IMG/VR virus record: IMGVR_UViG_3300003886_000014
Span: 1 to 41,676 of that record
Length of the DNA: 41,676 nt
Direction: 5' to 3' (one strand)
Origin: a virus
In this document: positions 35,873 through 41,301 of the stretch, one piece after another
Layout of the letters: the number at the start of each line of letters is the position of its first letter
How positions within the stretch are numbered: position 1 is the stretch's first letter
The notes under the pieces: generated by a model
Database searches by the model: none
What the model was told of the DNA's origin: nothing
The model's input: only the letters and a program-made list of their open reading frames with translations
Program-made: the position numbers and the translations under genes

Positions 35873-37066
35873 ATGTTGAAGCTGGCTCTAGAGGCCGGGC
35901 TGCCGCTCGTGTCCGTTACCACCACAGACGTTATGAACGCCTCTGACGTGCTGGCCCACGTGTCGGGGCGCGAGGTGATCGAGTGGGACGGCAAGACTCT
36001 GACCGACGACGCCCTGCACTGGACTGACCATCACCTCCCACAGGCCCCATGGTGCATGCTCTACGAGCGCCTGGTCGAGGTGGACGCCACCCTGGTGTTC
36101 ATCAACCCTGACTTCGACGAGCCGCTGTTCCGCGACTGCGGGGAGCTGCACGTCCCCTCAGGCCTGGTGAGGGAGTTCCTGCTTGATGTGTGCGACGAGG
36201 ACGCGGCCGACGCGCTGCTACCCCTGTTCGGCGGGTTGACGCTACACGAGGTGGCCGAAACGGTCAGGATAGCCCATACCACCGACGGCACCCTGTCCCC
36301 GCGCAGCGTGGCCCGCACCCGAGAGGCGTTGTGGAGGCCGTCGCGGGGAGTTAGCCTGGTGGACACGTCGTCCGTGGCCACGTACCTGCCGCCTGATGAG
36401 CTACTCACTTACTGTGACGATGAGCGCGAGTTCTTCCTGGGCGACCATGACACGCGCCTGGTGCCCAGGGGTCTGTTGTTCGACGGTCCTTCGGGCACAG
36501 GCAAGACCGAAGGCGCTAAATACCTGGCCGCCCGGTGGGGTGTGCCCTTGTTCAGGATCGACGCCACCGTGCAGTCCAAATGGCAGGGCGAGTCGGAATG
36601 GTTCCTGTCGAGGGCGCTATCCCAGGTCGAGGCCGCCGCCCCGTGCGTGCTGCTGATCGACGAGGCCGAGAAGATGTACGCCGGGGACAACGAGGTGGTG
36701 TCACGCATGCTGGGAGAGCTGCTGTGGTGGATGCAGTCGCGCCGGGCACGGGTCATGACGGTACTAACCACCAACGCCGTCGAGAAGCTGCCCGCCGAGC
36801 TGTACCGGCCAGGACGGGTAGACCGGACCATGAGCTTCGAGGGCCTTGGGGATCACGCCTCTTTGGTCGAGTTCATGAGACACGTCTTCAAGACGTTCAA
36901 GAAGGCAAGTAAGAAGGCGGGGGCCGGTGCGATGATCATCGAAGCCTACCAGCAGTACCCTGTGGCGCAGGCCGATGCGGTGGCGATGGTACACCACGCC
37001 GTCAAAGGTGTTATAATGGCGAAACACAACCCCAAAACCAAAGACAAGGAGGTCGATGATGAGTGA
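35873..37066 (+). CDS. AAA+ ATPase
   Basis: 397 residues from ATG 35873 with AAGGAGGG 6 bases upstream. The C-terminal half is an AAA+ core: Walker A GPSGTGKT (205-212), Walker B LLIDEAE with D263/E264, sensor Asn301, and RPGRVDR with Arg315/Arg318 as finger candidates. The 190-residue N-terminal part is unlike any domain I know. It could be a remodelling ATPase in replication, recombination or virion assembly; placement at the head of a replication operon favours a DNA role. A -10 box for the next gene lies inside its 3' end. Confidence 0.85.
   Translation: MLKLALEAGLPLVSVTTTDVMNASDVLAHVSGREVIEWDGKTLTDDALHWTDHHLPQAPWCMLYERLVEVDATLVFINPDFDEPLFRDCGELHVPSGLVREFLLDVCDEDAADALLPLFGGLTLHEVAETVRIAHTTDGTLSPRSVARTREALWRPSRGVSLVDTSSVATYLPPDELLTYCDDEREFFLGDHDTRLVPRGLLFDGPSGTGKTEGAKYLAARWGVPLFRIDATVQSKWQGESEWFLSRALSQVEAAAPCVLLIDEAEKMYAGDNEVVSRMLGELLWWMQSRRARVMTVLTTNAVEKLPAELYRPGRVDRTMSFEGLGDHASLVEFMRHVFKTFKKASKKAGAGAMIIEAYQQYPVAQADAVAMVHHAVKGVIMAKHNPKTKDKEVDDE
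37009..37017 (+). promoter_or_regulatory. Extended -10 box inside the AAA+ gene
   Basis: TGT-TATAAT (TG at 37009-37010, -10 at 37012-37017) lies 42 bp before the start of the next gene. It has the same TGn-TATAAT form as the 35835 promoter and could give extra expression of the downstream genes. Confidence 0.55.
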
Positions 37067-37943: not shown

Positions 37944-38915
37944 GTGCTCATAGGCGACTGCATACGCGCGGCGAGCGGCCGCCCTGCGGGGGGTGTGATC
38001 TTATACACCCTTCGCTACTGGCAGCCCCGTATGACGGTGTCTGTGCGCGGCAGGCTATGGAAGGCCGACACCGAGGAGGCGTGGTCTGAGCAGCTTGGTA
38101 TGAGCAGCAGTAGGGTGTTCAGACGAGCCCTTACACCCTTAGTAAAAGATGGTTTAGTGGAGAAAACCACAGCATGGTTCGGGGGTAAAAAGTGCTTACA
38201 CCTGCGCCTCACATCTATTGCGACAGCCTTATGTAAAGGGTCGGAAACGGTACTTTACAATGACCCCGAGGAGGATAGTAAAGGGTCGGAAACGACCTCT
38301 AGTAAAGGGTCGGAAACGACCCTCCCTATACAACAGGTACTTACAACAGATACTAAAAAAGATAATAGTCTTCTCGGAGAAGGGTTTCAGGGAGATGACC
38401 CGATGGGTGATATGATCAAAAAAATAGCCGAGGCATCTGGGATATCCGGGATACCCGATCCTGTGATCGAGGTCCCCGAGAAAAAGAAGCAGACCGGTGC
38501 GCTGGATGTGGCCGAGGTGGTATCCGGGACCAAGCCTCCCGAGGAGTGCTACGTAGACAAACCGGGGCAGCACGACATGTACCTGATCTGGTGCGGTGCC
38601 CACGCCAGAGCCTACGGGAAGGCGATGAGCACGCAGTCGTGGAACGTGGCCGAACAGAAGCTGGTCAAATCGCAGTTAATTGCACGGGTCGAGGACAAGG
38701 CCGCGCTGCAGACGGCCTTCGCCCACGCGGTCGAGAATTGGGGGGCCTTCACCGACTACGCCAAGAAGCAGACCGAGTGGTTCAACCCGCCCGAGCGGCC
38801 GTCGCTGGCGATGCTGTGTAAGTACCCGGCAGTCATGGTAGACTTCTGGCGTGGCCACAAGGTAGTCAATGAGATAGCCGGGTCGGGCACGCCGGAGAGC
38901 ATGAACAAGCTATGA
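37944..38915 (+). CDS. Replication initiator candidate (winged helix, lambda O-like) containing its origin
   Basis: 323 residues from GTG 37944. Residues 40-92 form a winged helix: WSEQLGMSSSRVFRRALTPL, a wing with DGLVEKTTAWFGG, and a closing strand. Residues 96-125 contain three KGSET repeats, the translation of the DNA iterons. A linker and a C-terminal helical domain (about 200-320) follow. An N-terminal DNA-binding domain, internal iterons, and loader/helicase genes downstream mirror lambda O. The local DNA of the iteron region is much more AT-rich than its surroundings. Confidence 0.78.
   Translation: MLIGDCIRAASGRPAGGVILYTLRYWQPRMTVSVRGRLWKADTEEAWSEQLGMSSSRVFRRALTPLVKDGLVEKTTAWFGGKKCLHLRLTSIATALCKGSETVLYNDPEEDSKGSETTSSKGSETTLPIQQVLTTDTKKDNSLLGEGFQGDDPMGDMIKKIAEASGISGIPDPVIEVPEKKKQTGALDVAEVVSGTKPPEECYVDKPGQHDMYLIWCGAHARAYGKAMSTQSWNVAEQKLVKSQLIARVEDKAALQTAFAHAVENWGAFTDYAKKQTEWFNPPERPSLAMLCKYPAVMVDFWRGHKVVNEIAGSGTPESMNKL
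38233..38318. repeat. Three 17-bp iterons (origin of replication candidate)
   Basis: GTAAAGGGTCGGAAACG occurs exactly at 38233-38249, 38278-38294 and 38302-38318 (offsets 45 and 24 bp). The last two extend to AGTAAAGGGTCGGAAACGAC. The first copy also forms a 7-bp inverted repeat, TGTAAAG (38232-38238) with CTTTACA (38253-38259). They lie inside the initiator gene. Confidence 0.85.
38326..38376. other. AT-rich unwinding element candidate next to the iterons
   Basis: About 50 bp of AT-rich DNA right after the iterons contains two 12-mers, ACAACAGGTACT (38330-38341) and ACAACAGATACT (38343-38354), with a 13-bp period, followed by an A-run and GATAATAG. Tandem AT-rich 13-mers beside iterons are the usual form of a duplex-opening site. 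Confidence 0.6.
38672..38683. repeat. Dispersed palindrome, one mismatch (GCAGTTAATTGC)
   Basis: Same core variant as at 8548; preceded by TC and followed by AC. It lies in the 3' half of the initiator gene and codes Ser-Gln-Leu-Ile-Ala, as in the polymerase copy. Confidence 0.7.
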
Positions 38916-39451
38916 CCAACGATCCGTTCGCCACCGGGGTACTGGACCCCACCGCCCACCACCGCTTGCTGGAGGACGCGCCTCGCGTGCTGCGCCGGGC
39001 CGGGTTGTCCGCCGCTCACATGCCCGGCCTGTGGTCGCCCCTGTCGGAGGCGTGTGGGGGCACCGAGCGGAAATGGGTAGCCGGCCTGCACACCAACGTC
39101 GACAAGGGCATCTTGGGTTTGTTGTTCGCCGGGAAGTTCAAGCCGCCCGTAGAAGATCGCATGGTGGCGCTGACCTGCTGCCTGCTGAGGAACTACGTGG
39201 ACGCTAGGATGGTGACGTTGCACGACGTGCTGGCCGACGCCCCGAACCCCACCGTGATGCTGATCCCGAATTTCCACACTAAGGGCAGGCTGCGCCCCTA
39301 CGAGGTGGGCAACCTGACCGACGTGCTGGTGGGCCGCTACAAGCGGGGAAATCACACCGTAGTCGGCATGCCCTCCTGGTCAGAGATGGAGGCCGATTAC
39401 AAGGACCTGTCACAGATGGTGGCTGCGCACTACGCGAGCGTCAAAGAATGA
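38912..39451 (+). CDS. Protein in helicase-loader position
   Basis: 179 residues from ATG 38912 (ATGA overlap with the initiator). The N-terminal 75 residues are helical; the rest is alpha/beta with VMLIPNFHTKG (about 114-124) and an arginine/lysine-rich helix near GRYKRG. It shows no Walker A, so it is not an intact DnaC-type ATPase. Position between initiator and DnaB-like helicase, the place of lambda P, suggests a helicase loader; this is inferred from context only. Confidence 0.6.
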   Translation: MTNDPFATGVLDPTAHHRLLEDAPRVLRRAGLSAAHMPGLWSPLSEACGGTERKWVAGLHTNVDKGILGLLFAGKFKPPVEDRMVALTCCLLRNYVDARMVTLHDVLADAPNPTVMLIPNFHTKGRLRPYEVGNLTDVLVGRYKRGNHTVVGMPSWSEMEADYKDLSQMVAAHYASVKE

Positions 39452-40749
39452 AGTCCCCAACTTCGATGTCGCAGGGCATGATGTACCTGGCCGCCCACAT
39501 GTCCGAGCAGTCGGTCGAGCGGTGGCTCAACGCCGGGTCAGTCGATCATTTGTTCAAGGGGCCGCAGGAGAAAGCCCTGTTCAAGTACGTGTCGGGCTAC
39601 ATCACCAAGCACGGCAAGCTGCCGGCGGTGAAGACCTGCCGCGAGGACACCAAACTGCCGATCCCCAAGAGCGTGGCCGAACCGTCCGGCAAGTACCACG
39701 AGCGCATCAGGGAGCGGCACATACGCACGAGCCTGTCGGCCGCCAGCACCAGGGTGCAGGAGCACCTGGACAGGGGTGTGGGCCACGCCGACGACGCCCT
39801 GGCGGTGATGCGCGACGCGGTGGCGGGCCTGATCATGCAGGACAGCGCCTCGGGGGTGGTCGACCTGCGCGACGCGGCGGACGTGCTGTGGCCCGAGTAC
39901 AAGGCCCACTGGGAGGCCGAGGACGGCGAGATGGGCATGCAGTTCGGCTACCCGTACCTCGATAAGTACGGCCCCCTGGCGGGGGGTGAGGTGGGGTCCA
40001 TCGTGGGCCGCCCGGCCGCCGGGAAAACCTTTATGCTGCTTAATATGGCCCGGCACTTCTGGGGGGTGCAGGGTAAGGTGCCGCTGTTCATCACGCCGGA
40101 AATGAAGCCCAACAAGATACTGCTGCGTCTGGCCAGCATGGAGTTCGGCCTGCCCATCAAGAGGCTGGCCAAGGGCGAGCTGCTGCCTAAGGTGGCCAAG
40201 CAGTACAAGGCCGCCCTGGAGGCGCTAAAAAGCTGCCCGGTGCCGTTCCACGTGGTCGATGGCAAGGTAACCCCCACCGTGCCGGACATCATCGCCTACG
40301 CGCGCCAGCTGGGCGTGGATGGGGTGTATATAGACGGGGCGTACCTGCTGAAGCACGCCACCGAGCGCAACAGGTTCCTGAGGGTGGCTGAGAACATGGA
40401 CCTGATCAAGAACGACCTGGCCACCGGGCTCAACCTGCCGGTGATGGCGAGCTGGCAGTTCAGTCGCAAGGCCGAGGAGAAGGTAAAGAAGAAAAAGCAG
40501 GATGAGGTGGACCTTGAGGACATCGGCTACAGCGACGCCATCGGCCAGCACTCGTCGGTGGTGCTGGGCATGTTCCAGGAGGAGGGTGTCGAGACTCTGG
40601 TGCGTCGACTGGTGACGGTGATGAAAGGGCGCGACGGCATGACCGGGGAGTTTCACGTGAGGTGGATGTTCGAGGGGCCGGGGGCCATGGACTTCTCAGA
40701 GGACAAGGAGGAGGACGTCACGGCCATCGAGTTCATCGACGGGAGTTAA
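39448..40749 (+). CDS. DnaB-like replicative helicase
   Basis: 433 residues from ATG 39448 (ATGA overlap). Residues 1-140 are a helical N-terminal domain. The RecA-type core has Walker A GRPAAGKT (187-194), the H1a-like ITPEM with Glu218, Walker B VYIDG with Asp296, and a glutamine motif with Gln337 in SWQFSR. A basic insert (KKKK, about 345-350) and VMKGRDG near 391-397 follow, with an acidic tail. It would unwind the fork for the family A polymerase. Confidence 0.88.
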   Translation: MKSPTSMSQGMMYLAAHMSEQSVERWLNAGSVDHLFKGPQEKALFKYVSGYITKHGKLPAVKTCREDTKLPIPKSVAEPSGKYHERIRERHIRTSLSAASTRVQEHLDRGVGHADDALAVMRDAVAGLIMQDSASGVVDLRDAADVLWPEYKAHWEAEDGEMGMQFGYPYLDKYGPLAGGEVGSIVGRPAAGKTFMLLNMARHFWGVQGKVPLFITPEMKPNKILLRLASMEFGLPIKRLAKGELLPKVAKQYKAALEALKSCPVPFHVVDGKVTPTVPDIIAYARQLGVDGVYIDGAYLLKHATERNRFLRVAENMDLIKNDLATGLNLPVMASWQFSRKAEEKVKKKKQDEVDLEDIGYSDAIGQHSSVVLGMFQEEGVETLVRRLVTVMKGRDGMTGEFHVRWMFEGPGAMDFSEDKEEDVTAIEFIDGS

Positions 40750-40767: not shown

Positions 40768-40825
40768 ATACTATGGACAGGCATACCTCTATAGTATTGA
40801 CATGCACCCCGCATTAGAATACTAT
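40768..40825 (+). promoter_or_regulatory. Strong sigma70 promoter with ATACTAT operator-like repeats
   Basis: TTGACA (40797-40802), 17-bp spacer, TACTAT (40820-40825). The heptamer ATACTAT occurs at 40768-40774, inverted at 40791-40797 (touching the -35) and direct again at 40819-40825 (covering the -10). The -35 13-mer TATAGTATTGACA is identical to 1071-1083. This is a good candidate for a regulated early promoter. Confidence 0.8.
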
Positions 40826-40851: not shown

Positions 40852-41301
40852 ATGACGGTAACGATCACGAAACCAAAGAACAAGACGCCGCTGAAGACCA
40901 AGGCCGGCACCAAGAGCGTGCAGACGCGCATAGCCGAGCTGGTGGACACGGTCGCGGGGCTCATCGAGGAGTGCAAGGCGGTCAAACTAGACCCCCGCTT
41001 CGAGGCCCTGTCGGATGCCAAGGGTGAGTTGCTGGGTCTGCTCGACGACAGCGTCGACGCGGCCGATGATGGTGTGCGGGACGGTGAGGCGTGGCGCTGC
41101 CAGTTCGGGGCCAAGGGCAACGTCAGGTCCATCACCGACATCAACAGGGTGTTCGAGCTAATGGGCAGTGACGTGTTCACGCAGGTGTGCAGCGTGCCCC
41201 TGAAGTACGTCGACGCCTACCTCACGCCGGACGAGATCAAGAAGGTCACCAAGTCCGAGCGCACCCTCGACCGGGTGCTGAAGTTCAAGCCCATCAAGTA
41301 A
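40852..41301 (+). CDS. Hypothetical protein under the 40.8 kb promoter
   Basis: 149 residues from ATG 40852 with AAGGAGGG upstream. The N-terminus is Lys/Thr-rich; residues 25-75 are an acidic helical hairpin, and the C-terminal half is mixed with two Cys and a helix ending KVTKSERTLDRVLKFK. No family is recognised. As the first gene after a strong, operator-like promoter it may be an early gene, possibly regulatory. Confidence 0.65.
   Translation: MTVTITKPKNKTPLKTKAGTKSVQTRIAELVDTVAGLIEECKAVKLDPRFEALSDAKGELLGLLDDSVDAADDGVRDGEAWRCQFGAKGNVRSITDINRVFELMGSDVFTQVCSVPLKYVDAYLTPDEIKKVTKSERTLDRVLKFKPIK

Follow-up and report, generated by a model that had tools for sequence, protein, structure and literature searches.

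The window analysed here is the entire IMG/VR virus record IMGVR_UViG_3300003886_000014 (41,676 bases). Relatives that share its gene order measure about 100 kb, and the record is probably one piece of a longer phage genome. The features on which this report centres are the following, in coordinates of the window.

37944..38915, + strand: replication initiator gene, 323 aa, GTG start (assigned from the open reading frame, PHROG 6493, AlphaFold and synteny)
38232..38259: second, wider dyad enclosing iteron 1, TGTAAAG-N14-CTTTACA, in place of the GGGTCG dyad
38233..38249, + strand: iteron 1, GTAAAGGGTCGGAAACG, left half-site intact, right half degenerate
38278..38294, + strand: iteron 2, with the dyad GGTCG-GAAA-CGACC over 38284-38297
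38302..38318, + strand: iteron 3, with the dyad AGGGTCG-GAAA-CGACCCT over 38306-38323
38327..38375: AT-rich, probably the DNA unwinding element, AT maximum of the contig (from AT content and relatives)
38329..38341, + strand: 13-mer copy 1, TACAACAGGTACT, motif score 6.7
38342..38354, + strand: 13-mer copy 2, TACAACAGATACT, motif score 10.0
38912..39451, + strand: candidate helicase loader, DnaC-type AAA+ fold, without Walker A motif
39448..40749, + strand: DnaB-like replicative helicase (Pfam DnaB_C, E 2.3e-23; PHROG 19, E 2.9e-43)

The replication genes are syntenic between the window and three phages of about 100 kb each that were reached via the DnaB protein, namely Rhodobacter phage RcZahn and Rhizobium phages RHph_TM16 and RHph_Y1_11. 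The order in these phages is AAA-ATPase, hypothetical, initiator-position gene, a gene of ~180 aa, and DnaB. In the window, the AAA ATPase gene lies at 35873-37066, two genes 5' of the initiator, and its place is kept in all three phages.

The 17-mer GTAAAGGGTCGGAAACG occurs in three exact copies starting at 38233, 38278 and 38302, a number of matches reached in 0/100 shuffles, and no further copy at up to three mismatches was found in the window. The spacings are 45 and 24 bp, and all copies stand in one codon phase and encode the peptide KGSET. Each of iterons 2 and 3 has inverted half-sites flanking GAAA, and iteron 1 has the left half only. A degenerate fourth iteron was sought by eye in the 45-bp gap, and none of the candidates was convincing.

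Nine base pairs past iteron 3 starts a stretch (38327-38375) that is 71% AT, the highest value of any 49-nt stretch in the 41.7-kb contig. In calculated duplex stability, the 60-bp segment from 38327 ranks second lowest, the lowest being the region from 40744. Within the AT-rich stretch, TACAACAG(G/A)TACT is found twice in tandem (38329-38354) with 12/13 positions identical, and the two copies are read in two different frames. Three matches at two mismatches were reached in 2/100 shuffles, and the 13-mers by themselves are weak evidence; they gain weight because relatives show comparable elements, as described below.

A preliminary description of this DNA had pointed out the three exact 17-bp iterons encoding KGSET, the two near-identical repeats with a 13-bp period, the AT-rich DNA beside the iterons, a winged helix at the start of the initiator, and loader-position and DnaB-like genes 3' of it. 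All of these were borne out, the last two by predicted structures and by the DnaB_C match. That iterons 2 and 3 are dyads was absent from that description.

The AlphaFold model of the initiator consists of a confidently predicted winged helix (residues 1-97), a disordered linker (~100-205) and a helical C-terminal domain (209-313); the iterons and the melting element are located in the DNA that encodes the linker. In structure comparison, the nearest matches of the winged helix were MarR-type regulators, with Z values reaching 9.9, and, on a par with these, the N-terminal domains of initiators (4pql, Z 9.6, rmsd 2.9, 90 aligned; 4pta, Z 8.6). The protein matches phrog_6493 over residues 17-153 (E 4.5e-5), and among family members 15/21 match PHROG 6493 and 15/21 match PHROG 428.

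The 179-residue protein in the loader position was predicted with a pLDDT of 95 to be an AAA+ domain of the DnaC/DnaI/DnaA type, and it aligned with DnaC 3ec2 at Z 14.3 (rmsd 2.8, 140 aligned). It thus shares with the DnaC/DnaI/IstB loaders a common fold and a place beside the helicase gene, but differs from them in its ATPase motifs. No Walker A signature (GxxxxGK[ST]) occurs in the aligned part of the window protein, only 1/21 members has one, and LLIPNF is found where the acidic Walker B is expected. With both Walker motifs missing across the family, the candidate loader (window 38912-39451; relatives L013 and L024-L047) is perhaps an ATP-independent loader descended from an ATPase.

Searches of viral contigs with a single protein, either the initiator or DnaB, yielded no relatives, and profiles were needed. 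A DnaB profile led to 24 viral contigs, in all but one of which an initiator profile found the initiator gene 5' of DnaB. Each gene was examined for direct repeats 18-50 bp apart that went beyond dinucleotide shuffles at p<=0.02. Significant repeats were present in 15/25 initiator genes (the window included), compared with 0/26 loader genes and 2/26 DnaB genes at the same loci. The repeat lags were 22 (twice), 23, 24 (six times), 33, 46 (four times) and 47, and the repeats started at 0.30-0.41 of the gene in all 15 initiators. The remaining 10/25, including those of Rhizobium phages TM16 and Y1_11, had no significant repeats by this test; some of these members may have degenerate iterons and some may have their origin elsewhere.

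The iteron sequence varies by phage, as exemplified by GGTGCA-GATA-TGCACC in RcZahn, GTCCCTGGAGGGAC in L046 and CCGGACACCATGTCCGG in L042, and the iterons of relatives are usually dyadic. Perfect 6+6 dyads with spacers of 2-6 occur at 8.4 per kb in the linker, versus 1.75 per kb in the rest of the initiator, 1.7 in the loader and 1.05 in DnaB, so that their density in the linker is about five to eight times that of the other regions. GC skew of the window and two relatives did not single out the putative origin position; the one-directional gene order weakens skew evidence.

A period of 12 or 13 bp was also found, mostly just 3' of the iterons and specifically in the initiators: at lag 12, 18/24 matches were reached in 10/25 initiators versus 0/26 and 1/26 control genes. 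In two of these ten, L013 and L025, the repeats are GC-rich and of a different type. A first motif search returned a generic A-rich motif, which was an artefact of too loose a prior; a stricter prior was used instead. De novo motif finding gave AACAGAGA(C/T)TAC, an ACAGAGAYTAC-like 12-mer, and the 13-mers of the window are diverged members of this motif. In a leave-one-out analysis, in which the starting consensus drawn from all sequences constitutes a small leak, the top motif match fell in gene positions 300-540 for 24/30 initiators (expected fraction 0.25, binomial 4e-10). A matrix built from the window's family only placed its top match in positions 300-600 in 25 of 26 O-like initiators, which were non-redundant and chosen by protein profile from other viral contigs; for some of these initiators, the next gene codes for a DnaC-like loader.

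When viral contigs were scanned for exact matches to the tandem 12-mer pair ACAGAGAYTACNACAGAGAYTAC, at least 120 stretches were found. Among the 80 matches listed (L053-L132), the sense ORF was the longer ORF in 79, all 80 were in one reading frame (TEITTET), and the O-like initiator profile matched the encoded protein in 72; of 53 scanned among the matches listed, 49 match PHROG 678, replication initiation O-like. The genes carrying the conserved 12-mer are dominated by PHROGs 6493, 428, 678 and 9773 (DnaD-like / O-like initiators), which are annotated as protein families only, without an embedded origin. Lambda has no good match to the 12-mer. No description of it was found in the open-licence literature, a scope outside which the classic lambdoid-origin comparisons lie, and it may have been noted earlier by others. 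The comparison, which covers dozens of other phages, points to a melting half with a conserved sequence and a protein-binding half that differs by phage.

The arrangement in the window is reminiscent of phage lambda, whose origin lies in the middle of O, with two iterons and the AT-rich region forming the minimal unwinding unit (PMC7466680), and whose iterons are bound by O dimers (PMC5043065). In lambda O, which served as a positive control, the annotated iterons are spaced 20, 24 and 23 bp, contain the dyads TCCCTC-AAAAC-GAGGGA and are followed by an A-rich strand. In both lambda ori and the window, several dyad iterons spaced 20-24 bp lie midway through the initiator gene and precede an AT-rich stretch, and a helicase-delivery gene directly 3' overlaps the initiator stop codon. 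They differ in that the iteron sequences are unrelated, as the preliminary description had said, and that the window has three iterons with a 45-bp gap and not four. In addition, the helicase of the window is phage-encoded, so that delivery of host DnaB by a P-type loader does not apply, and its loader candidate is of DnaC fold, unlike lambda P, which is not known to belong to the AAA+ proteins. The earlier label "lambda-O-like" therefore holds for the architecture and fails for Pfam membership: no match to PF04492 was obtained for the window initiator at E<=1 or in 21 family members at E<=0.01, whereas lambda O itself matches at 5.7e-36.

A second parallel is found in the RepA_N proteins. In staphylococcal pSK41, the N-terminal domain binds boxes central in rep and the origin-encoded residues form a linker (PMC5703833); the window protein likewise has a winged-helix N-terminal domain, and its putative origin DNA encodes the linker. 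No match to Pfam RepA_N was found in the window protein or in 21 family members. The Rep of pSK41 contacts primase via its C-terminus, whereas the partner in the window would probably be the loader and DnaB. The architecture is therefore that of lambda O and RepA_N, and neither Pfam family matches.

From these sequence comparisons, we consider it very likely that the phage replication origin sits inside its own initiator gene. The preliminary description had proposed an iteron origin at this place, and the proposal is supported by the place, spacing and dyads of the repeats in relatives, by the AT-rich periodic element and by the loader and DnaB controls. An initiator-embedded iteron origin is convincing here and familiar in kind; what it contributes beyond this is comparative, with unlike iterons beside like melting elements, and the DnaC-fold loader that lacks Walker A.

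The repeats could instead be operators through which a MarR-like winged helix regulates its own gene, with the replication origin elsewhere. Dyads are typical of operators, and the MarR-type regulators are structurally closest to the winged helix. However, the sites throughout the family lie deep in the gene, beside the conserved AT-rich 12-mer element and in no promoter position, the protein families are those of replication initiators, and the genes stand in a loader/DnaB operon. Lambda O moreover has the same layout with proven origin function. We therefore regard operators in place of an origin as unlikely; the sites may have a regulatory role in addition to that of an origin.

It was also conceivable that the repeats are a feature of the protein, a low-complexity linker (KGSET here, TEITTET elsewhere) that provides flexibility or a binding surface, with the DNA repeats passive. 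The linker is disordered, the iteron spacings in the window (45 and 24) are multiples of three, and a KGSET protein repeat is therefore possible; the tandem 12-mers of other phages, among the matches listed, are always in one frame. However, the lag was not divisible by three in 8/15 initiators with repeats, which places the copies in different frames, as is also the case for the 13-mers of the window. Given a protein repeat, the three copies of KGSET would use the same codons throughout by chance with a probability of ~4e-4, based on the codon usage of seven window genes. For the 12-mers, circularity was avoided by picking the sites from peptide sequence only, [TS]E[ITNS][TS] within residues 100-205; in these peptides Glu was encoded by GAG in 30/30 cases, whereas the rest of the same genes uses GAG for 37% of Glu (p 4e-13). 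Thr was ACA or ACT in 64/66. This codon bias indicates that the DNA sequence is constrained. The enrichment of inverted repeats is not predicted by protein constraint either, and a purely protein-level origin of the repeats appears very improbable.

Hardly any more weight can be given to GGGUCG-GAAA-CGACCC hairpins with a GNRA loop that act in the transcript, for instance in translation or attenuation: GAAA is a stable tetraloop and the single strand folds better than shuffles (z -3.2, DNA parameters), but the hairpin is found in only two of the three copies, the dyads of relatives have varied centres that are not GNRA, and an Rfam search gave no match. Because of the frame and codon evidence, the protein-only and the RNA-hairpin explanations were both set aside.

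For an origin embedded in the initiator gene, the most likely course of binding, opening and helicase loading can be drawn by analogy with lambda. The winged helix would bind the GGGTCG-GAAA-CGACC iterons, most likely as one dimer per dyad, about two helical turns apart, and the iteron-bound assembly would strain and open the AT-rich element at 38327-38375. The 12/13-bp repeats would be where unwinding occurs, and they may also serve for recognition of the single strand. Next, the DnaC-fold loader (38912-39451) would receive the opened site from the C-terminal domain of the initiator and would put in place the DnaB-like helicase that the phage itself encodes.

At the oriC of B. subtilis, DnaD recognises, as single strand, the TnnT motifs that lie opposite the DnaA-trios (PMC10201434). 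A tentative idea, to which we would give somewhat less than an even chance, is that ACAGAGAYTAC, phased at 12 bp (ACAGAGATTAC repeats), is a sequence-conserved unwinding element shared across a broad superfamily of winged-helix initiators and read as a single strand by conserved machinery, either the C-terminal domain of the initiator or the loader, like the DnaA-trio / DnaD element of oriC, while the double-strand iterons diverge.

The comparison provides a rule for locating candidate phage origins from sequence alone: the DNA for the disordered linker of a winged-helix initiator, dyads 22-24 bp apart, and then ACAGAGAYTAC-like 12-mers, of which tandem copies are usable as an origin finder. 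Such a rule opens up plasmid tests of origins in many uncultured phages and allows cognate iterons to be assigned to each initiator. It also prompts one to ask which factor recognises the conserved melting element and how a loader can function when it lacks Walker A.

Two further observations were made at these loci. In the window, a sigma-70-like promoter, TTGACA-17-TACTAT, is found inside an inverted repeat with 15-nt arms (40791-40825); it is intergenic, precedes the ORF at 40852-41301 and lies in the 60-bp region whose duplex is the least stable in the contig, and it looks like a regulated promoter. In three relatives (L043:2423-4711, L044:2459-4702 and L045:2426-4699), the DnaB-like ORF is ~750 aa long versus ~430, possibly reflecting an insertion such as an intein.
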